DNA of 43,910 nt. Origin: a virus. Below, piece by piece: positions 7,732-41,702 of this stretch. Where the stretch lies: positions 1-43,910 of IMG/VR virus record IMGVR_UViG_3300009176_000042. The stretch is one strand, 5' to 3'. The notes under the pieces were generated by a model. The model was not told where the DNA came from. It worked only from the letters and a program-made list of their open reading frames with translations, and ran no database searches. The translations under genes were made by a program, and so were the position numbers. Position 1 is the stretch's first letter. Each line of letters opens with the position of its first letter.

Positions 7732-9044
7732 CGCCATTACCACCTGTGCGCAAACGCAAAAACTATAGCGATGTGAGCCCGAAGGATCTGACGTTCGCGC
7801 TGTTCCATGATCGGATCGCGCCGCACGATGCCATGCGGGCCTCGACCGAAGACGCGATCGACCTGGGCCTGCGACAAAAGGGCTTTACGATCTACAAAGA
7901 TGATAGCGGCCGGGATCGCTGGCTTGCGATAACTACCACGGCGTATGAAGACAAGGATCGCGAGATCATCAGCCGCAACGCGATCAAAGAAGCTGTTGCG
8001 CTCGGGGACAAGACTAAGGAGCGCGGCCCGCTGCTGTTCTGGCATGTGCCGGGGTTGGTTATGGGTGCATGCGACTTTCAGGCGCAAGGCGGCCCGGGCG
8101 ATCGGTTCCTGATCGAAGGCGGCACGTTTCGCAACAAGGCCATGGCGAGCCTGGGCCAGAAGCTGAGCGACGCCGGATATCAGATGAGTCCTGGCTTCAT
8201 TCATACGGACGATCAGCCCAATCAAGGGGTATACGATCATATACTGATTTATGAGCGATCGGCGGTGCCGCAGAATCGCGCGGCTAATTACTTTACGCGG
8301 TATGCAACCGCAAAGGAGGATAAGGTGCTAGCACCTGAAAAGATCGCGGAGTATCGCGAGAAGGCGGCCGGCAACGCTGAAGCATTGGCCATGCTCGACA
8401 GTTTGCTTGCGACAGCCCAGAAGGACGATGACACGGCCCAGGCGCGCAACGTCGTGTACAAAGAAGCACCAGAAGAGATTACGCTTAACGGCGTAACCTA
8501 TACGGTCAAGGCGTTCCCACCGGCAGCGGCAGCGGTCGAGGGCTCGCCCGAAGAGGAAGCGGCCGAGCCTGAAGAAGAAGCCATGGCCGAAGGCGACATG
8601 GAAGCCGATCAGGCTGACGACGGCATGGGCGATGGCATGGACGATGCGGCCTTTGCTCAGCTTATCGCAAAGGCGGTTGTCGAGGCCCTGACGCCGCTGC
8701 TCGACATCGAAAAGAAGATGGCCGGCCACATGGGCGAATTGAAAACAGCCCTGAGCGGATTCAGCGCGCAGAAAGACGACGCGGCCCAGGCCCAGACTGC
8801 TGCTGCTCAGTCCCAGGCCGATCAGATCGCCGCGCTCGATGCGAAAGTGAAAGAGCTCACCGGCGATCTTCCGACGAGCGTCATGAACGGGGCGCGCAAC
8901 TACTATCGCGCAAGCGAGTCGATCGCAACGCAGTTGACGCCGCAGGCAGCTGCGACGATTAAAGAGGCGATCAGCAACATTCCGACGGGCCTAACCGATC
9001 CGGCAGAGATCGCGGCGTATAAGTTAATTTTTGCCAACGGCTAA
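7728..9044 (+). CDS. prohead protease fused to scaffold domain
   Basis: A 438-residue protein combining two capsid-assembly roles. Residues about 45-190 form an HK97/XkdF-type prohead serine protease: His106 in FWHVPGLVMG and Ser154 in QMSPGF fit the catalytic His and Ser, followed by the conserved YERSAVP at about 175-181. Residues about 230-300 are a very acidic Glu/Ala/Asp-rich linker, and residues about 300-400 are coiled-coil-like, as expected of an internal scaffold. Protease-scaffold fusions directly before the capsid gene are common. The ATG overlaps the previous stop (ATGA at 7728-7731) and the stop is 19 bases before the capsid start. Its substrates probably include its own scaffold and the capsid N-terminus. 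Confidence 0.8.
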
Positions 9045-32880: not shown

Positions 32881-33573
32881 ATGGCACTATTCACCCCACT
32901 GATGAACTATGCAGGCTATGAGCATGTCCTGAATGCCATGCCGACGTTCTATCATCCCAACGGCAACATCTACGGGATCGCCATCGCAAAGAAGGGCGGC
33001 ACCTCGCAGGATCTGCAAGTGTTTCGTGTCAGGCCCGGCAGCCTGAGCAGAGAACTGGTACACACATTTCGCGGCGGCGGCGTCGACGCCGTATCTCAAA
33101 TCGCCGCCGGGGGCTGTATCATTCGGCAGGATGGCAGTCTTTGGGCCTGGGCATCAGCGGTGCCGCAACAGTCGCCGACGATTACAAAAACCGGCTTCGT
33201 CGGCGGATACTGGGAACCGCTTCCAGGCGTCGACGATCCGTGGGCGCCCGGCGGCATTACGCTGCTGCCGAGCGTTCGGACGAATCCGGCATGGGAGACT
33301 CGCAGTCTGACAGCTGGCGTCATGCTCGACATACCGGCGACGTTTGGCGTACCGGTTGCCAATTCCTATCTCGTGCGACTGACGATGAATGCGCCGATCG
33401 CCAACGTACGCGCAAGGTGCGGCACGACGGCGACGCCGTTTTTCTTCACGGTCAATTCGCAGGTTGCTGGGGTTGACAACATGGATCAGGGCTGGGTGCC
33501 GGGGCCGCTGTGCTACGTCAGTCCGGCGCAGGGGACTCCGGTGATTTGGCTTCAGATCGTGGGCTATGCTTAG
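32881..33573 (+). CDS. putative tail fibre-associated beta-rich protein
   Basis: A 230-residue protein closing the plus-strand structural operon. Composition is beta-rich with GTSQDLQVFRVRPGSL, GGCIIRQDGSLWAWASA and a C-terminal TPVIWLQIVGYA strand. It has the look of a minor fibre or receptor-binding component, but no family is recognised. Its TAG (33571-33573) overlaps the stop codon of the convergent minus-strand gene, and no plus-strand terminator is visible just after it. Confidence 0.55.
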   Translation: MALFTPLMNYAGYEHVLNAMPTFYHPNGNIYGIAIAKKGGTSQDLQVFRVRPGSLSRELVHTFRGGGVDAVSQIAAGGCIIRQDGSLWAWASAVPQQSPTITKTGFVGGYWEPLPGVDDPWAPGGITLLPSVRTNPAWETRSLTAGVMLDIPATFGVPVANSYLVRLTMNAPIANVRARCGTTATPFFFTVNSQVAGVDNMDQGWVPGPLCYVSPAQGTPVIWLQIVGYA

Positions 33574-33890: not shown

Positions 33891-34282
33891 TACGGGCCTT
33901 CCTTCAACAGTCTTTCGCGCTCAGCGTCGATCTTTGCTTGATAGTCTTTACGCAGTCGCCAACCATGGCCGGTCGACCAATAGACAAGCTGCAGGCGGCG
34001 GCGCTCCTTGACGATCAGCGCATAGTATGCGGCCCGCTTGCGTTCGGCTTGGTATTCGGGATTCGGGTAGTCTTTTTTGCGATACGATGGCACGCCGTTA
34101 TAAACGAAGATCGGCAACCGATCAGTATCGTCGACGCTGATCGTACGTCGCGCCGGATAATAGCCGCTCAGCAGGTAGGCACCTCGACACTTCGGGTTAT
34201 AGCTGGCATTGTAGGCGCGATCTTCAAGCCAGTCGCACAGCGCTTGCCAGTCGTCGAGGCGCTTCAGCGGATCAGTTTCCAT
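33890..34282 (-). CDS. unknown Tyr/Arg-rich protein, 130 aa
   Basis: The start is set at the ATG at 34282, which has GGGAG eight bases upstream on this strand; a TTG at 34297 is the alternative. The product is soluble, highly charged and rich in Tyr and Arg (DWLEDRAYNASYNPKCRG, PSYRKKDYPNPEYQAERKR). A Trp/Gly segment (STGHGWRLRKDYQAKI) follows, and the C-terminus is helical. No family recognised; it may bind nucleic acid, given its charge. Confidence 0.55.
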   Translation of the reverse strand: METDPLKRLDDWQALCDWLEDRAYNASYNPKCRGAYLLSGYYPARRTISVDDTDRLPIFVYNGVPSYRKKDYPNPEYQAERKRAAYYALIVKERRRLQLVYWSTGHGWRLRKDYQAKIDAERERLLKEGP

Positions 34283-34970
34283 CGCCGTCACTCCCAAACA
34301 TGGCCGGGTTGCGGCTGGCTTCGCTCAGGATCTTCAGTGCAGCTTGCCGACTGTCGAGGATCGCGATGGTGCCGGCGGCGCGCGGCCCTCGACCGCTGAT
34401 CACGCCTGCTCGGGCGCAAAGGTCGAGAAACCCGGCCGCGCCATCCTGAGTCATGTCGACGAGCTTAAACGCACGATGGCCAATATTCAGTTGCATCGGG
34501 CCTTTGGTTAGACGCTCGATCGACAACGACCGGGGCTGCTCTAAGATCAGCCAGAGGGCTGCCAGCGCCACATGGCGCATGTCGCGCTCAGTGTAGCTCC
34601 ATTCGCTCATTTGCTGAGCGGTGATCATACCGTCACTACTCTGGTACTTGTCGAGCTCAGCACTGTGCCACGCATAGACCATCGCATGATACTGCTTAAT
34701 AGCGTCAGGGATATCGGCTGACAGGGGCCAGAAGAAACGAGCCCCAGCTAAGACGAGCAAGCCCCCGAAGACTGCGCTGATCAGTTGCAAGCCGGTCGAC
34801 AGCGGCATGGCCCAGTAGACAAACAGCGCGCCAACGCCGATCGGCAGCAGGCTGATCATCGTCAGCCCGAAGAGCGGTGCAAGCGTTGCAAAGCTGGGCC
34901 GCAGACTGTTATAGTCGAGCGGGCCATGCGCCGGGCTGCTGATCGTTGTTGTCGTCCGTCCTGAGAACAT
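34272..34970 (-). CDS. two-helix membrane protein with cytoplasmic domain, 232 aa
   Basis: Start chosen at the ATG at 34970, two bases after the preceding stop. Two adjacent hydrophobic segments at about residues 33-54 and 61-83 are followed by a soluble domain of about 150 residues. That domain contains YTERDMRHVALAALWLI, SLSIERLTKGPMQL and a LCARAGVISGRGPRAAG segment resembling an FtsK gamma- or winged-helix-type loop. The Asp/Gly-rich end overlaps the next gene. Function is unknown; a membrane-tethered regulatory or DNA-binding role is conceivable but weakly supported. Confidence 0.5.
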   Translation of the reverse strand: MFSGRTTTTISSPAHGPLDYNSLRPSFATLAPLFGLTMISLLPIGVGALFVYWAMPLSTGLQLISAVFGGLLVLAGARFFWPLSADIPDAIKQYHAMVYAWHSAELDKYQSSDGMITAQQMSEWSYTERDMRHVALAALWLILEQPRSLSIERLTKGPMQLNIGHRAFKLVDMTQDGAAGFLDLCARAGVISGRGPRAAGTIAILDSRQAALKILSEASRNPAMFGSDGDGN

Positions 34971-34972
34971 GG

Positions 34973-35260
34973 TTAGACTCCGCGTGCCTTTGCAATAGCG
35001 GCGCGCAACTGTTCGTAGACATGCGGGGCCCCAATGCCATGCCAATCCATGGCGATGACATACTCACATGCCGCCAATAGCTCAGGAGCTGCCGCAATAA
35101 TATGCGCGTTGGCTGAGCCCGATACAATCGCAATAGGCCCAGAATGGCCCGGCCCAGGCGTTACCCATACTTCATCAGAAAGTAGGGTTGACTCGTCGCC
35201 TTTTAACACCTCCCCGGCTTTCCATGGTGCCGGCGTGTGCGTTTCGTTGATCTTCATCAT
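34973..35260 (-). CDS. widespread small phage protein (NAxxIAAAPELLxA type), 95 aa
   Basis: The C-terminal half reads SANAHIIAAAPELLAACEYV and ends LRAAIAKARGV, and the N-terminus has THTPAPWK. Both are hallmarks of a very common small phage and prophage protein of unknown function. The start is uncertain among tandem ATGs at 35260, 35257 and an upstream ATG at 35275; AAGG lies close upstream of the pair. The roughly 60 bases before the neighbouring gene show no clear promoter. Confidence 0.65.
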   Translation of the reverse strand: MMKINETHTPAPWKAGEVLKGDESTLLSDEVWVTPGPGHSGPIAIVSGSANAHIIAAAPELLAACEYVIAMDWHGIGAPHVYEQLRAAIAKARGV

Positions 35261-35320
35261 TGCCTTACACTCCATCTGCCTTGATTCTGCTACGTTGTGA
35301 ATTATGCTGCGTCGCGGCAG

Positions 35321-35911
35321 TTACCCAGCGATGCAGATCCCATGCTGCTTGTAGTGCTTTCCGTGCTGCCCCGCCATCGCCAGGCTAACCGGCTGCTGAC
35401 AGTAGCGGCACGTTATGAGACGCTGATGCACGCCGTCAGCTAATGCCGGCGGCTCGACGGTATGCATGCGGTAGCTGGTAGCGTCGCTACGACGCAGTGC
35501 GGCAACAGTGCCGGCAGAAGGTGTCAAGACTTTACGCGGCTGGGCTAGGTGCTGGGTGTAGATGAACAGTACCACAGCCTGGGCCATGAACAGTCCAGCG
35601 GCAGCTAACCCCACTTCGGCATGCACGTAGTACGCAACCATAGCGGTGAACGCTGACGCCGCAAACATCGCGGCCCATGACCAATAGCTGTCGCGCCCGA
35701 GGCGTCGACCCATTGTGACGGCGATCAGTGTTCCTTCAAGGCTGGCAGCCGCTGCGATGCCACACGCGACACGCACCCAGGGCAACATCCAAATGATAGA
35801 CAAGGGCATGTCAGCAGTCGGTACGTAAAGTATGAATACATTCAGGGCGTTGGCCAAGAACAGCGCAGCCAAAGGCCACTTTTCCCAGCCGGCCAAAGTA
35901 TCATCGTGCAT
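35321..35911 (-). CDS. four-helix membrane protein with zinc-finger-like C-terminus
   Basis: A 196-residue protein with hydrophobic segments at about residues 12-30, 37-60, 76-93 and 97-118, a Pro/Ala-rich linker, and a C-terminal CRYCQQPVSLAMAGQHGKHY motif followed by a His and Cys. The Cys-x2-Cys plus downstream His/Cys set could bind one zinc ion. The start overlaps the previous gene by 11 bases. No family recognised. Confidence 0.55.
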   Translation of the reverse strand: MHDDTLAGWEKWPLAALFLANALNVFILYVPTADMPLSIIWMLPWVRVACGIAAAASLEGTLIAVTMGRRLGRDSYWSWAAMFAASAFTAMVAYYVHAEVGLAAAGLFMAQAVVLFIYTQHLAQPRKVLTPSAGTVAALRRSDATSYRMHTVEPPALADGVHQRLITCRYCQQPVSLAMAGQHGKHYKQHGICIAG

Positions 35912-36149
35912 CTCTATTCCCCCAAGCGATCAGCAGCGTAACGACCGGCACCAGCCATGCCAGCTGATAATAGTCGTACGGCAAGAAGGCGGCTCGACCA
36001 ACCCAACCCAGTAAGAAACTTCCGGTCACCAGCAGAATCACCGCAATAGAATGCGGAGCAACGATCGGATCGGGTGCTTGCGATAGCGGTTCGGTCACCA
36101 CGCCAGAATCAAGGCGCTCAGTGATCCCAGTATATGATATAATAGCCAT
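35901..36149 (-). CDS. small two-helix membrane protein, 82 aa
   Basis: The ATG at 36149 has AGGAG seven bases upstream on the minus strand. A polar N-terminal region of about 32 residues precedes two hydrophobic segments (about 34-51 and 60-76). It is the first gene after the Cro/CI-like regulator. Its leader and ribosome binding site lie entirely opposite the possible antisense RNA at 36150-36214, so its expression may be controlled post-transcriptionally. Function unknown. Confidence 0.55.
   Translation of the reverse strand: MAIISYTGITERLDSGVVTEPLSQAPDPIVAPHSIAVILLVTGSFLLGWVGRAAFLPYDYYQLAWLVPVVTLLIAWGNRDAR
36135..36143 (+). promoter_or_regulatory. extended -10 promoter candidate
   Basis: TGA followed by a perfect TATAAT (36138-36143) on the plus strand matches an extended -10 element. 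No good -35 hexamer lies 17 bases upstream. A transcript starting about seven bases downstream would begin near 36150 and run straight into the terminator at 36168-36214. The local sequence is also the start of a minus-strand coding region, so it may be fortuitous. Confidence 0.45.
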
Positions 36150-36214
36150 GGAGACTCCTAGCTTCCGGCCCTGATCAGTAGCTTTCGCGGGCAGGCTGAT
36201 CAGGGCTCTTTTTT
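36150..36214 (+). ncRNA. candidate antisense small RNA, about 65 nt
   Basis: Bounded by the extended -10 element at 36135-36143 and the intrinsic terminator at 36168-36214. It contains no start codon with a meaningful frame. It would be fully complementary to the leader and ribosome binding site (CTCCT at 36155-36159 is the complement of AGGAG) of the membrane gene starting at 36149, and would touch the last codon of the regulator gene. The size and arrangement recall lambda OOP or P22 sar antisense RNAs. Existence is inferred, not shown. Confidence 0.35.
36168..36214 (+). terminator. intrinsic terminator, plus orientation
   Basis: A perfect 11-base inverted repeat, GCCCTGATCAG (36168-36178) and CTGATCAGGGC (36196-36206), with a 17-base loop is followed by TCTTTTTT at 36207-36214. 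The U-tract exists only in the plus direction. It could end a short antisense RNA or stop read-through antisense transcription from the plus operon, protecting the regulator gene. Confidence 0.8.
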
Positions 36215-36434
36215 ATGTCTCAACAGTTGAGTGATCCGGCGGGGCGATATTGAGCGCGGTGCAAACGGCGATCACGATACTGTACGCCGGGTGCGCTTCG
36301 CCGCGCTCGATGTCGCCGATCGTCGTCGAGCTACAGCCGGCGAGCTCGCCGAGCTGTCGCTGCGTGATCTTCTTGCGGCGGCGGCGAAGGTGAACGATTT
36401 CGCCCCAGGAAGCCCAGTCGATATTTATCATCAT
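36213..36434 (-). CDS. Cro/CI-type XRE transcriptional regulator
   Basis: A 73-residue single-domain regulator. The helix-turn-helix is clear at about residues 23-46: ITQRQLGELAGCSSTTIG then DIERGEAHP, the standard HTH_3 fold. There is no C-terminal dimerisation or autocleavage domain, so it is nearer Cro-size than CI-size. Two Met codons are in tandem at the start, and a TATAAT lies only six bases upstream, so the mRNA is probably leaderless. It separates the DNA-modification genes from the membrane-protein genes and is adjacent to the antisense RNA candidate. Confidence 0.8.
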   Translation of the reverse strand: MMINIDWASWGEIVHLRRRRKKITQRQLGELAGCSSTTIGDIERGEAHPAYSIVIAVCTALNIAPPDHSTVET

Positions 36435-36440
36435 GGCGGC

Positions 36441-36449
36441 ATTATAGCA
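36441..36449 (-). promoter_or_regulatory. extended -10 promoter of the XRE regulator
   Basis: On the minus strand TGC-TATAAT ends six bases before the ATG at 36434, placing the expected transcription start at or beside the A of the ATG. A TTGACA is present (36454-36459) but only seven bases upstream of the -10, too close to act as its -35; it might instead belong to an operator. The element overlaps the 3' end of the methyltransferase gene. Confidence 0.55.
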
Positions 36450-36455
36450 CGCCTG

Positions 36456-37343
36456 TCAACCGCTGGTATGATGCTCGACGATCAGTCGACCGATAAATTC
36501 TGCCACCTGCGGTACTACGGCGTTGCCTAGTCCTCTAAGTCTGTCCACCCGAGCGGGAATCCCATGAGCCATTCGACCCACTGCGGGTTCAGTTGCCCAC
36601 TGATACCGTCCGACTGTCGCACGAAATGTGCTAAGTCGATCTGCCGCTTTTTGCCGTCCGGTGTCATCCCGGTTAAAGACATGCCGCCCTTGGGACTGCG
36701 GCCACCATTCGGGACCGTCGGCGTCGGCCAAAGGTGCGGATACTTGCCCTGCTGTATTGCCTTGACCATTACATTTAGGCTGCTGATCGTGTTGCGCGGC
36801 CCGCCAACCATGCGGGCTTTCATCGCCATGTGTGCTTCGGGTGATTTGTTGTCGTCGTTCGCGACTGGTGTAGGCCACAATGAAGACTCGATCGCGCCGA
36901 TGCGGCGCACCAACGGCGGCCGCCGGTATGCACTGCCATTCCGCATCATACCCGATCGCGGCCAGGTCTCCGAGTACAGTTGATAATCCTCGAACAAGCA
37001 AAGCTGATACGTTTTCCACAAGCACGTATCTGGGTCGTAATTCGCGAATGATTCGGGCGTATTCGCTCCATAGTCCGGATCGAGTGCCGGTGATTCCGGC
37101 GCGTTGTCCTGCATTGCTGATGTCCTGACAGGGGAAGCCCCCGCAGATAAGGTCGACCGGCGATAGACTGTCAGCGCCAACGCTCCGCACGTCGCGAAAC
37201 TTCGGTACACTGGGCCAATGCTTTGTGAGGACTCGGGTGCTGTAGTCGTCAATTTCTACCTGCCACTTGCACACCATGCCGGCGCGCTCTAATCCAAGAT
37301 CCAGCCCGCCAATGCCAGCGAACAATGAGCCAAACGTTATCAT
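36456..37343 (-). CDS. C5-cytosine DNA methyltransferase (Dcm-like)
   Basis: A 295-residue enzyme with the ordered C5 motifs: I (FGSLFAGIGGLDLGLE, residues 4-19), IV with catalytic Cys72 in GGFPCQDIS, VI (ENV, 110-112), VIII (HRRDRVFIVA, about 148-157), a short target-recognition region, and IX-X (GRMAHGIPARVDRLRGLGNA, then VVPQVAEFIG). It methylates cytosine within a short unknown target, probably to resist host restriction. The TCAT overlap joins it to the VRR-NUC gene upstream. A second, family-like reading frame runs through most of the gene. No partner restriction enzyme is present. Confidence 0.92.
   Translation of the reverse strand: MITFGSLFAGIGGLDLGLERAGMVCKWQVEIDDYSTRVLTKHWPSVPKFRDVRSVGADSLSPVDLICGGFPCQDISNAGQRAGITGTRSGLWSEYARIIRELRPRYVLVENVSALLVRGLSTVLGDLAAIGYDAEWQCIPAAAVGAPHRRDRVFIVAYTSRERRQQITRSTHGDESPHGWRAAQHDQQPKCNGQGNTAGQVSAPLADADGPEWWPQSQGRHVFNRDDTGRQKAADRLSTFRATVGRYQWATEPAVGRMAHGIPARVDRLRGLGNAVVPQVAEFIGRLIVEHHTSG
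36527..37252 (-). CDS. overlapping +1-frame protein of the WPTP / LNPxWVEWLMG type inside dcm
   Basis: An open frame of up to 241 codons lies in the +1 frame of the methyltransferase gene. It reads like a known group of phage proteins found near methylase genes: SPVRTS, YDPDTCLWKTYQLCLF, YSETWPRSGMMRNGSAY, RRPPLVRRI, two WPTP motifs and the ending SGQLNPQWVEWLMGFPLGWT. From memory, proteins with this series also occur as stand-alone genes, but I cannot verify that here. The start is unclear: TTG at 37252 or ATG at 37114, with AGGA upstream of the latter. It may be a real second product, a decaying overprinted gene, or a compositional shadow. Confidence 0.4.
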   Translation of the reverse strand: MTTTAPESSQSIGPVYRSFATCGALALTVYRRSTLSAGASPVRTSAMQDNAPESPALDPDYGANTPESFANYDPDTCLWKTYQLCLFEDYQLYSETWPRSGMMRNGSAYRRPPLVRRIGAIESSLWPTPVANDDNKSPEAHMAMKARMVGGPRNTISSLNVMVKAIQQGKYPHLWPTPTVPNGGRSPKGGMSLTGMTPDGKKRQIDLAHFVRQSDGISGQLNPQWVEWLMGFPLGWTDLED

Positions 37344-37804
37344 TGTTTGCGCGCCTTCCCTAGCTTCTCCCAGTCGTCAACCGTCTGCGCTCCAAAGGCG
37401 TCAGCCAGGCCGCTTCTCAGCTCGTCGACGCTATGCGCAATGATGACAATGCCGTTGCGCCGCAAGATAAATTCTTTCTGCCGCAGCTGCGCGGTCGAAG
37501 GCGATCCTTTGGCGCTCTTAATTTCTATGCTCACGTATTTCCCATTAGGTGCGCAGCAGGTTCTGTCGTGCGTGCCAACGCGGCCCATGCTCATCTTGCG
37601 GCCCTCAATCTGGGCCATGCCTGCCGACGTGCGCAACACATAAAAGTCGAGCAGGGCTAGATAGTCGTCGATCGCCTTCGATACTTTGGCCTCGGGCGTC
37701 GCGCCGCGCCGGATCGGTTTGGCCTGTCGACCTGGGACATAGGTTTTCTCATAGTCGGTAATCTCGCCTGGGGGGCCATCGAAGGCCCATGGCTCGTCGA
37801 TCAT
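37340..37804 (-). CDS. VRR-NUC domain nuclease
   Basis: A 154-residue protein with a PD-(D/E)xK-type VRR-NUC core: GRVGTHDRTCC (Asp80), then SIEIKSAKGSPSTAQ, supplying Glu94, Lys96 and Gln106. These residues fit the family active site, which cuts branched DNA structures. The N-terminus carries a Pro-rich extension before the core helix (EAKVSKAIDDYL). Located between two methyltransferases, it may process replication or recombination intermediates; a restriction-like role is less likely given the family. The stop overlaps the start of the C5 methyltransferase. Confidence 0.8.
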   Translation of the reverse strand: MIDEPWAFDGPPGEITDYEKTYVPGRQAKPIRRGATPEAKVSKAIDDYLALLDFYVLRTSAGMAQIEGRKMSMGRVGTHDRTCCAPNGKYVSIEIKSAKGSPSTAQLRQKEFILRRNGIVIIAHSVDELRSGLADAFGAQTVDDWEKLGKARKQ

Positions 37805-37805
37805 G

Positions 37806-39548
37806 TTAATCCTCCATGAACATATCTAATTGGCCAGCAGGTACTGCTGCTGCGCTGACGACGGTCGGCTTGCGATCGGGATCTGATAACTCCCATGCGC
37901 GCTGTTTCCAGTAGGCCAGCCGCGCGTTGGCGATGGCGACATGCTCGGCTTCGAGCTCGACGCCGGTGATCTCTTCCCAGCCTGCCAGCATGGCCCCGAT
38001 GGCTTCGCTGCCGGCCCCAGCGAACGGGATCAGCAGTCGACGCGGGCCATAGGCGGCCGGCGGCAGTAGCAGGGTTGCCAGGTAGCGCGACAGGCTGATC
38101 GGCTTAATCGTCGGGTGAATATTGCGCCGGGTTGTTTCGCCACGCTGGTATGGGTTGTCGATCGACACGTCGCGCCCGTCGTCGACTTTGGAATCGCCGA
38201 AGTCTGCCGCATCTTCGTCGAGCAGCCGCATGAGCGCGGTCTGACGCGGGTCGAGTCCGGCCTCCCTTTCAGCAGTCGACGCCTTTGCGATATACGCAAC
38301 CGGATCGGCGGCTTCGAGCCGGTCGAGCATCCAATCAGCGGCGTAAAAGTAGCGCGACGCGGTGCCGCTGTCGTCGTGGCCGCGCGGTATTGTTGAATCT
38401 CTTTTCTCCCATTGGCCCAGCACAGTACCGCCAAATGATCCCATGTTGACCCCACCACGCATGGCCCGCTTCGCTTCACTCTCGCCACTCTGGGCCCCCA
38501 GCCGCGCGACAGGGCAGGATGGGATGCAGACGCCGTTGCACTCGGGCGCATGCGTCAGCACGAGATTCGCGGGCCATCGGCCCAGTTGATTGGGGCTGCC
38601 GACTGTGCTTTGATCGACATCCGTCGATTGATAGATAGCATCAAATTGCGGGCGCGTTCGTGTTGTATAGGTTGTCGGTTCGTTATGGCTTATCCTCCCG
38701 CCATCTATCCATAGCGCGCCTGCGCCGGTCGACGTGATGTTGTCCACTGGCGATCCGTCGTACGGCTTCTGGAAAACAATGATCGGCTCAAGCGCGGGCT
38801 TGATTGCCTGCCCGCCATACCGATGGCCGGCCCAGTCGGCTGCGCTTGCTGTCGCCGGGCCATGCACGTCGAAGGACTCGCGCTCTTTGCTGTTGAAGCC
38901 GTTGTCTTTCTCGCGATAGCCGAGCTCAGCAGCTGCAAACTTTGGCTGATGTTTCTTTGTGCGCTCGACCGGCGCAAAGCCTGCGGCAGCCTTGATCGTC
39001 TTGCGGGCCTGCTGATATGCGCGCAACGCGGCGACGCGCTCGACCTTCGGTGCTAGGCGTGCTGCCTGTCGCAACGTCTCAAGCTGATCGCGCTCTGCCG
39101 GATGCTCGTCGAGCCAGGCCCGAAACGCGCGATCGTCGATCTGGGCGCTGATGTTGGTTGCCTTTGGAAAACCCGAACCGTAACTCCAGCCAAAGATCGT
39201 CGGCTGTATGATCAGCCCGGCGTCTTCGATCGCGACAGCCAAACGATGCCAGCCGCGCGACGATGCAAACACCATGCCCCATGCGCCCGGGTAGAGGTGC
39301 TGCGCTATCGCGGCCCAGGTCGACGGGCGAAACGCGATGTCGCCGCCATCCCAGGTGGCATTCATGAATCCGCGCGACGCGCGACTAAAAGCACCATCCG
39401 TGCCAAACTGAGCCGGGGCTGATCCTGCCTTCCCGAACCGCTCAGTTATACTTGTGAGATGGTACGGCGGATCGCAAAGCAGGGCATGAAACTTCGGCCC
39501 GGTATAGGTCTGGGCCCATGTCAGGATATCGGCTTGAAGCATGGTCAT
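37806..39548 (-). CDS. DPPY-type DNA amino-methyltransferase, 580 aa
   Basis: Motif IV, DPPY, lies near the N-terminus (Asp26-Tyr29 in LLCDPPYHLTS), and the SAM-binding motif I region is near the C-terminus (LLIPFAGAGSEAIGAMLAGW), with HPTIKP shortly before it. This order is that of beta-class N6-adenine or N4-cytosine methyltransferases. A long central region (about residues 130-460) probably holds target recognition, with a Cys cluster CNGVCIPSC. The C-terminus ends QLDMFMED, resembling a sliding-clamp-binding peptide. DPPY favours adenine N6 methylation. It is larger than most phage relatives; ATG 39542 is an alternative start. Confidence 0.85.
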   Translation of the reverse strand: MTMLQADILTWAQTYTGPKFHALLCDPPYHLTSITERFGKAGSAPAQFGTDGAFSRASRGFMNATWDGGDIAFRPSTWAAIAQHLYPGAWGMVFASSRGWHRLAVAIEDAGLIIQPTIFGWSYGSGFPKATNISAQIDDRAFRAWLDEHPAERDQLETLRQAARLAPKVERVAALRAYQQARKTIKAAAGFAPVERTKKHQPKFAAAELGYREKDNGFNSKERESFDVHGPATASAADWAGHRYGGQAIKPALEPIIVFQKPYDGSPVDNITSTGAGALWIDGGRISHNEPTTYTTRTRPQFDAIYQSTDVDQSTVGSPNQLGRWPANLVLTHAPECNGVCIPSCPVARLGAQSGESEAKRAMRGGVNMGSFGGTVLGQWEKRDSTIPRGHDDSGTASRYFYAADWMLDRLEAADPVAYIAKASTAEREAGLDPRQTALMRLLDEDAADFGDSKVDDGRDVSIDNPYQRGETTRRNIHPTIKPISLSRYLATLLLPPAAYGPRRLLIPFAGAGSEAIGAMLAGWEEITGVELEAEHVAIANARLAYWKQRAWELSDPDRKPTVVSAAAVPAGQLDMFMED

Positions 39549-39949: not shown

Positions 39950-40342
39950 CTATTCTCCTTTTACGTCAGTGCGCGCCACACTGGACGCACTCGAATACCC
40001 GTCCGGATAGCGCTCGCGTAGCTTGGCGACGTTGCGCTCCATTACTTCAGACATGTTCACGTCAAGCTTGGTACAGAGGGCTGCAATGTACCAAAGCACA
40101 TCGCCTAACTCGTCGATCAGCTGATCGCGATTGATCCCATGTTGATGAAACACGGCTTTCTTGAGTGTATCGGCGACTTCGCCAGCTTCCCCAGCCAGGC
40201 CCAGTCCACAGCGTACCAGCATGATCTCATAGTCGGTATAGACCTGATCGGGAGAGTCCGGCAGCGTGCGACTGCTCAGCCATTGATATTCGTTCGCATA
40301 GATCATCTTGATAATGGCCCTTTGTTCTGGGATGGCTAGCAT
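39950..40342 (-). CDS. MazG-like nucleotide pyrophosphohydrolase
   Basis: Start taken at the ATG at 40342, which overlaps the end of the upstream methyltransferase; the open frame further upstream is its shadow. The 130-residue product has the all-alpha NTP pyrophosphatase motifs: GLAGEAGEVADTLKKA with the Glu-x2-Glu type metal site and DELGDVLWYIAALC with the second Glu/Asp pair. MazG-like enzymes hydrolyse NTPs or (p)ppGpp-related nucleotides; in phages they may support nucleotide pools or dampen stress signalling. It lies in the replication and modification operon. Confidence 0.85.
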   Translation of the reverse strand: MLAIPEQRAIIKMIYANEYQWLSSRTLPDSPDQVYTDYEIMLVRCGLGLAGEAGEVADTLKKAVFHQHGINRDQLIDELGDVLWYIAALCTKLDVNMSEVMERNVAKLRERYPDGYSSASSVARTDVKGE

Positions 40343-41505
40343 AGCTGCATTTCCACTTGCACGCCGTTGGTGCGCTCTTCTTGGAGGTCTATGTAGGCCG
40401 GATTCAGGTCGATCAGCATGCTGTCGCGCTGATGCCGCTCCGCGACGCGGGCGACGGTGCCGGTGCCGCCGAACGGATCGAGCACGATCGAGCGCGCCGT
40501 GCCAGTGTTGGCGGGGCATGCGCAGCGCGGGGCGAAACCGCGATCGGTGTGGAATGGCACGCGCCGCATGTCGTTTTCATCATTCCGATCGCCGTTGCCA
40601 CGATTGCGCGGAACATTCGTTTTGCGGTATTCGGGATGGTCATGCGGTAATTCGTCCAGTCCTAATCGTGTCACGTCCACAACCCGCCCCCACGCTTTCC
40701 CGCACGTCTCGCACGCTTGCGCGCTGGAGCCGGCCAGGATGCACGGCGCGATCAGCGCTTCCGGCATGGTTGCGAAGTGCGCGCCGGCGTAGGGCTGAGT
40801 CGCGATCGTCCAGACCGATCGGCGGTTGCGTGTGCCGTCCGGCCGCGATCCTAATGATTGTTCTCCGCTGGGCGGTTTGTAATCATTCCGATCGGGCGCG
40901 GATGAATAGGCGTTCGTCCGATCGGTTGCCCGATCACCCCATCGCGCGATTGTGCTGGCGCTGATCGGCTCCACGATCGCGGTCGCATCGTAGAAATAGC
41001 GCTGGCGTTTGGCGAATAAGAACAGATATTCATGCGCCCGCGTCGGTCGGTCGCGGACGCTTTCGGGCATGGGATTCGGCTTCGCCCAGATAATATCGGA
41101 ACGCAGAATCCACCCGGCGTCTTGGAGCGCCAGCGCGACGCGCCATGGCATGCCCAGGAGATTCTTTTCTGGCCGATCGCCTATGCCGCCGCGATCTGTT
41201 GAGGTGAATGTGCGCGTCGCACGCTGGCCGTTTGCGCCTTGAGGCCCGCCGGGCTTACTCGCATACGAATCCCCCAAGTTAAGCCACAGCGTTCCATCGT
41301 CACGTAGCACGCGCCAGCAGTCCGCGAACACCGCGACCAGCGCAGCGACGTACGCGGCCGGCGTCGGCTCTTGTCCGATTTCGCGCGGATCGTCCGTGTA
41401 CTTTCGCAGACCGTAGTAGGGCGGCGACGTGACGATCGTTTGTACTGATTGCGCTGGCAGCGTGGCCAGCACATCACGGCAATCGCCGGCAAGCAGTGTG
41501 ATCAT
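40336..41505 (-). CDS. SPPY-type DNA methyltransferase (probable N4-cytosine)
   Basis: Start at the ATG at 41505, overlapping the previous stop; 389 residues. Motif IV is TSPPYYGLRKY (Ser27-Tyr30) and motif I, DPFGGTGTVARVA, is near the C-terminus, the beta-class order. SPPY rather than DPPY favours N4-cytosine methylation, though adenine is not excluded. WIATQPYAGAHFATMP lies before a Cys set (CETCG and CAC) that may bind zinc. The recognition site is unknown. It is one of three methyltransferases here and has no cognate nuclease, fitting anti-restriction self-modification. Confidence 0.88.
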   Translation of the reverse strand: MITLLAGDCRDVLATLPAQSVQTIVTSPPYYGLRKYTDDPREIGQEPTPAAYVAALVAVFADCWRVLRDDGTLWLNLGDSYASKPGGPQGANGQRATRTFTSTDRGGIGDRPEKNLLGMPWRVALALQDAGWILRSDIIWAKPNPMPESVRDRPTRAHEYLFLFAKRQRYFYDATAIVEPISASTIARWGDRATDRTNAYSSAPDRNDYKPPSGEQSLGSRPDGTRNRRSVWTIATQPYAGAHFATMPEALIAPCILAGSSAQACETCGKAWGRVVDVTRLGLDELPHDHPEYRKTNVPRNRGNGDRNDENDMRRVPFHTDRGFAPRCACPANTGTARSIVLDPFGGTGTVARVAERHQRDSMLIDLNPAYIDLQEERTNGVQVEMQLC

Positions 41506-41702
41506 AGCGCGCTCAGCAGGTCGAGCGCGGCGTTGGTACGCTCCGATACTGGCAGGCGCAGCAGCCAGGCGATCGACGCCTCGGGCCGCGCCTTGCACTC
41601 GTCGCATACCAGCATACTGGTACGTGTCAAGTTGCACACGATGCAGCGGCCGGCCGCCGGCACCGGGCGCAGTCGACTGACTGAGATCAGTTTGTCATTC
41701 AT
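41502..41702 (-). CDS. small zinc-ribbon protein, 66 aa
   Basis: Two Cys pairs, CIVC and CDEC, about 10 residues apart, form a probable zinc ribbon at residues 20-36, followed by a helical tail. It overlaps the primase-helicase gene at its start and joins the downstream methyltransferase by ATGA. Such small ribbon proteins are common in phage replication operons; specific function is unknown. Confidence 0.6.
   Translation of the reverse strand: MNDKLISVSRLRPVPAAGRCIVCNLTRTSMLVCDECKARPEASIAWLLRLPVSERTNAALDLLSAL

Follow-up and report, generated by a model that had tools for sequence, protein, structure and literature searches.

We find it reasonably probable that positions 36135–36214 constitute a plus-strand gene for a predicted cis-antisense RNA that lies over the Shine-Dalgarno sequence and start codon of a small membrane-protein gene. 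In kind, the unit is likely an antisense RNA gene resembling sar of phage P22, as predicted from its sequence. It is located in the early region of the window, the whole 43,910-base virus record that was analyzed (G+C 60%), where structural genes occupy the plus strand up to about 33573 and the minus strand carries early-type genes from 43860 down to 33570. The early-type block encodes primase/helicase, methyltransferases, a MazG-like protein, an endonuclease, and an HTH regulator. The original prediction described every gene nearby as lying on the minus strand, and this holds for all ORFs accepted as genes between 33570 and 43860, an assignment made from the ORF list and partly a matter of judgement. 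The two gene blocks converge at 33570–33573, where their stop codons appear to overlap and leave no room for a terminator between them. One early operon carries three DNA methyltransferase genes with PHROG matches (36456–37343, 37806–39548, and 40336–41637).

On one side of the unit lies the gene for a 73-aa Cro/C1-type HTH regulator (36213–36434, minus strand; PF01381, 1.7e-10; PF13560, 1.6e-10), which also matches PHROG transcriptional repressor families. To call this neighbor a switch regulator, as had been done initially, goes too far for a 73-aa protein of this type in a window where no integrase was seen among the proteins scanned. The HTH coding sequence contains a 33-nt near-perfect palindrome (36329–36361; 88% self-complementary match). 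On the other side is the presumed target, a small membrane protein of 82 aa (35901–36149, minus strand) with a single 19-residue stretch above the hydropathy cut-off and no Pfam, PHROG, or meaningful NCBIfam match. It is followed by a 196-aa multi-span membrane protein (35321–35911) that matches no family and carries a Cys-X2-Cys motif in its C-terminal part.

The proposed RNA gene opens with an extended −10 element, TGATATAAT (TGN TATAAT; 36135–36143, plus strand), which sits inside the first codons of the opposing membrane-protein gene. No −35 is recognizable, and the hexamer at 17-nt spacing reads CGCTCA by eye. After a gap of 24 nt comes a hairpin (36168–36206) with a 17-nt loop and a perfect 11-bp stem, in which GCCCTGATCAG (36168–36178) pairs with CTGATCAGGGC (36196–36206) at 11 of 11 positions; the stem arms hold the 8-bp palindrome CTGATCAG. 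The hairpin runs directly into the T-run TCTTTTTT (T C TTTTTT; 36207–36214), an intrinsic terminator tail. The extended −10, the perfect stem, and the T-run are all present on the plus strand at the coordinates first reported. Placing the start 7 nt after the −10 and the 3′ end at the T-run gives a putative antisense RNA of about 60–65 nt (36150–36214). With the regulator ORF ending at 36213 and the membrane-protein ORF starting at 36149, this RNA would span the interval from regulator stop to next-gene start together with the AGGAG Shine-Dalgarno sequence (36155–36159), as originally proposed, with its 5′ segment (36150–36167) antisense to the latter. The predicted RNA folds at −30.6 kcal/mol (z −3.73; 0 of 200 shuffles were as good) and contains no ORF with a start codon that is longer than one residue.

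Such a combination of elements occurs at no other place in the window. With a custom scan, the hairpin and T-run emerged as the strongest of 18 terminator-like sites (10 plus, 8 minus), at −27.0 kcal/mol, against −24.4 kcal/mol for the best site in 20 one-strand surrogates. Requiring a −10 that matches at 7 or more of 8 positions, followed by a perfect stem of at least 8 bp with a T-run, returned this one place and none in 25 both-strand surrogates. The element TGNTATAAT alone occurs three times on the two strands, versus a mean of 0.25 per one-strand Markov surrogate. Because the −10 in the window prompted the finding, an independent test has to come from the relatives and not from the rarity of that −10. 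A simple sigma-70/terminator scan lists neither the −10 nor the hairpin, since it requires a −35 and accepts no loop longer than 8.

Related contigs, presumably of soil origin judging by their IMG project numbers, were collected through the 196-aa downstream protein. Five were found at 47–52% identity, three of which reach the hairpin segment: L003 (IMGVR_UViG_3300025941_000389), L005 (3300014969_000327), and L006 (3300011403_000004). Searches with neighboring genes recovered these contigs again and added L004, L007, and L048, whose sequences begin downstream of the hairpin and cannot be scored for it. Duplicates were dropped before counting (L012, L019, L021, L045, and L049 are the contig of L003; L017, L018, L022, L046, and L050 that of L005; L008, L020, L023, and L047 that of L006). 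The hairpin was found in 0 of 16 other related records (14 TerL loci, L004, and L007), most of which are fragments, and in the same records the membrane protein appeared only as a 12-codon scrap and the HTH protein as one weak match. DNA methyltransferase was found in 0 of 7 TerL relatives, and primase in 4 of 10 records. A gapped palindrome pattern hit ten stretches, namely L003, L005, L006, and seven taken as chance. A loop-only pattern added one contig, L024, where the loop lies inside an HNH-like gene and was likewise taken as chance. Within genome_contigs, the exact 33-nt hairpin core had no occurrence and membrane-protein alignment yielded no confirmed match.

The 39-nt hairpin, loop included, is identical in the window and all three relatives, a count drawn from only four related sequences that are therefore not independent. 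No covariation signal is possible among these four, because the stem never varies. The plus-strand −10 is likewise kept in 4 of 4 loci, as TGNTATNNT: it reads TGATATAAT in the window, TGTTATGAT in L003 and L006, and TGGTATACT in L005, and L003 and L005 each differ from the window by two substitutions in the 9-nt motif, all of them at its three free positions. A −10 match at 7 or more of 8 positions is present in 0.6–0.9% of 35-nt segments in each of the three relatives. The −10 stands 24 nt from the stem in all but L006, where the distance is 22 nt. Comparison with related phages, proposed at the outset as a check, thus came out in favor of the prediction: stem and plus-strand −10 are both kept in the three relatives, and loss of the −10 with retention of the stem was not seen among them. 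Three of the four (window, L003, and L005) keep the T-run. It is broken in L006 (TGCGCTTT), where no other plus-strand terminator was found within 600 nt of the stem; L006 would therefore make a longer RNA or carry a non-functional unit. An antisense small RNA remains the best-supported reading on the strength of the kept −10 and stem, weakened by the loss of the T-run in one of four loci.

The boundaries of the conserved block emerge from the comparison of the window with L003. The two agree at 11/12 positions in the tail, 39/39 in the hairpin, 24/24 in the spacer, and 7/9 in the motif, and beyond the motif at 2/15, 6/15, 3/15, and 6/15 going outward. Because similarity falls to 2/15 just beyond the −10, the conserved block ends there and coincides with the predicted RNA gene. 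The 5′ segment (36150–36167) is kept at 18/18 positions in L003 and 17/18 in L005, and is rewritten, with 2 nt fewer, in L006. Between L003 and L006 the −10 agrees at 9/9 positions, yet the RBS segment between −10 and hairpin has changed, as has the start codon, from ATG to GTG. A minus-strand frame through the hairpin is open in the window by eye but is not kept; we rejected coding through the hairpin because the distance to the start differs, at 18 nt in the window versus 16 nt in L006.

The comparison can also be made at the level of the codons beneath the −10. Third positions of two successive codons (ATA, NCA) are fixed, first and second positions around them vary, and the protein reads IIS, IIT, or SIP; of the 76 third positions compared across the membrane gene, no more than 24 are the same in all four phages. 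Given the protein, the chance of the motif under all-gene codon usage is 0.009 in the window, 0.016 in L003 and L006, and 0.002 in L005. Under the usage of codons 2–10 (234 codons) the same chance rises to 0.075, 0.096, and 0.015, respectively, which makes the codon-based argument for the −10 weak when taken alone.

Extended −10 elements are apparently used before the HTH gene as well, as TGCTATAAT, TGATATAAT, and TGGTACAAT across phages; the L006 HTH promoter is weaker, with TGGTAGTAT and TTGACG 18 nt before the hexamer. These elements make the extended −10 promoter type plausible in the host. The putative element of the window, TGCTATAAT (36441–36449, minus strand), stands so close upstream of the HTH start codon that the mRNA made from it is likely leaderless or nearly so. 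When the HTH upstream regions are compared (36434–36465, minus strand, in the window, with those of L003, L005, and L006), a GTTGACA shortly before the −10 is kept in the window, L003, and L005; it is too close to be a −35 and is perhaps an operator.

The genes on either side of the hairpin are mosaic. HTH genes of the window, L003, and L005 share 89–93% DNA identity, whereas the L006 gene matches each of them at about 55%. Membrane genes are 88% identical between the window and L005, 74% between L003 and L006, and 61–68% in mixed pairs. Scored as HTH/membrane N-terminus alleles, the window and L005 are A/A, L003 is A/B, and L006 is B/B; hence L003 combines an HTH gene from one group and a membrane N-terminus from the other on the two sides of the hairpin. 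The −10 is kept in both N-terminal alleles of the membrane protein. The gene at 34272–34970 has 94% protein identity in L006. The distance among the four phages is thus not very large, and the identical hairpin of L006 is to be weighed accordingly. L006 alone has a 24-aa, very hydrophobic ORF (L006:3079–3153) between HTH gene and hairpin. Nine bases of the hairpin loop, CCTGCCCGC on the early-gene strand, have one further copy per phage on the opposite strand (window 38807, plus, inside a methyltransferase gene; L003 280, L005 2794, and L006 1379, all minus), and these second copies probably reflect coding conservation or chance.

The first competitor to the antisense gene, though an unlikely one, is a hairpin that acts in the minus-strand mRNA with no plus-strand promoter. 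As a conserved leader or intercistronic structure, it would serve in protection or processing of the HTH mRNA and in control of membrane-protein translation. Inverted repeats fold on both strands, the Shine-Dalgarno sequence is drawn into a small hairpin in the minus-strand fold of all four phages, and this reading allows for the loss of the T-run in L006. The minus-strand fold is, however, the weaker one (hairpin core −20.9 versus −25.4 kcal/mol on the plus strand), and two G–U pairs in the apical stem form on the plus strand only. Moreover, a structure of the minus-strand mRNA leaves unexplained why TGNTATNNT is kept in all four loci and the T-run in three of them.

There is a small chance that the RNA is real but works mainly in trans, its invariant loop and stem binding a host RNA or protein and its overlap with the membrane gene being secondary. 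Loop and stem are indeed identical in all four phages, even beside the HTH gene with 55% identity (118/213) and the rewritten RBS segment of L006. Yet no second site complementary to at least 10 loop bases was found in the window, L005, or L006, and L003 has a single 10-base match, at 7959; the exact core is absent from genome_contigs, as noted above. The phage RNA c4 has an Rfam family, whereas here the whole window gave no Rfam match at gathering thresholds, and positions 36050–36300, searched at E up to 5, gave only one chance match of miRNA type (E 3.4).

Slightly less credible is a plain terminator that keeps rightward transcription of the late operon from reading through as antisense to the early operon. 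Plus-strand late and minus-strand early genes do meet, with overlapping stops, and the hairpin is the best plus-strand terminator in the window. The site is nonetheless 2.6 kb past the junction of the gene blocks, and a plus-strand hairpin with a T-run lies nearer to it (33391–33439; −22.6). A terminator would also leave the identity of the loop and the kept −10 unexplained, and its T-run is lost in L006.

We are more doubtful still of a conserved joint for recombinational exchange of regulator and membrane alleles, with conservation reflecting recent exchange instead of RNA function. The HTH and membrane N-terminus alleles do reassort among the four phages, and the 94% identical neighboring gene in L006 makes descent recent there. 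But the block that L006 shares stops at the stem on one side and a single base past it on the opposite side, and the −10 persists on the far side of the changed segment; a recombination tract would not choose such ends. An operator in which the HTH protein binds two direct copies of the palindromic CTGATCAG, 25 bp apart, is very improbable, as CTGATCAG occurs 5 times in the window versus 5.1 expected, with the other copies elsewhere, and the site is identical beside an HTH protein that differs in what we take to be its recognition helix region (SSTT versus SPSL).

The antisense gene that we favor has its closest known parallel in P22 sar, the arc-ant intercistronic antisense RNA of 68/69 nt, which lies opposite the interval that separates a small regulator gene from its downstream neighbor and covers the RBS of the latter (PMC7968456; PMC12197685). 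Here, too, the predicted RNA (36150–36214) lies opposite the intercistronic segment and the downstream RBS. Sequence elements that would serve as its own promoter and intrinsic terminator are present, with the T-run lost in L006. The flanking proteins differ, as the regulator is a Cro/C1-type HTH protein and not Arc, and the downstream gene encodes a small membrane protein and not Ant. Block of ant by sar is established by experiment, whereas the present unit is a prediction, and its loop is invariant. Nothing points to descent from sar: there are no arc/ant flanks, and a megablast of window positions 35000–37500 against 50,697 phage records gave no match. Also cited in connection with the known parallels are the ant moron of epsilon34 (PMC2629481) and a table and a list in PMC5415839.

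Lambda OOP, the other parallel drawn in the original prediction, is less apt. OOP (77 nt) is also a short antisense RNA that ends at an intrinsic terminator near early regulators. According to PMC5869508, however, it has −10 and −35 promoter regions, shares an overlap of 52 bases with the C-terminal end of cII, and ends at tO, so it is antisense to the 3′ end of its target; here the RBS end of 35901–36149 is covered and no −35 is seen. The c4 RNA of P1/P7, cited as an antisense regulator of phage immunity, resembles the present case as a phage antisense RNA in an immunity-type operon (PMC12197685). By the tests run, the predicted unit appears homologous to neither P22 sar nor lambda OOP, and on the best reading its layout is nearer to that of sar. 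The sar-type layout is already known from P22, and what is new here is the predicted unit in this phage group, which is not the subject of any of the listed open-access titles and abstract openings, a result that is no proof of its being unreported.

In the mechanism we propose, host RNA polymerase would start at about 36150 from the extended −10 and make an RNA of about 60–65 nt that stops at the hairpin and T-run. The 5′ segment of this RNA would pair with the Shine-Dalgarno sequence and start of the 82-aa gene on the mRNA shared by the HTH and membrane proteins. Ribosomes would then be kept from loading, or the paired RNAs would become open to attack by RNase III. As a result the regulator would be made, and the downstream membrane protein would stay low until sense transcription exceeds antisense transcription.

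Cis-antisense action alone is no explanation for the invariant loop. Since an RNA of this kind can work without a fixed loop or a fixed stem, identity at 39 of 39 positions in four phages suggests a second constraint. More speculatively, and with low probability, the unit could be a portable antisense-RNA gene whose hairpin, loop included, has a second, sequence-specific job in binding a host RNA or protein and stays fixed while both flanking alleles exchange. The promoter would move together with the membrane-protein allele and the T-run together with that of the regulator, and recombination could switch between a short, terminated RNA and a longer form that runs into the regulator gene, as in L006.

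Phage cis-antisense RNAs have few worked examples, mostly from enteric phages. If the present reading is true, the layout of regulator, antisense RNA, and next gene arises more widely, in an uncultivated soil phage lineage. Such units would then be findable by comparing the non-coding strand, where a −10 is kept while the codons beneath it change. The invariant loop raises the question of what else the RNA binds, and it is the one feature worth specialist attention.
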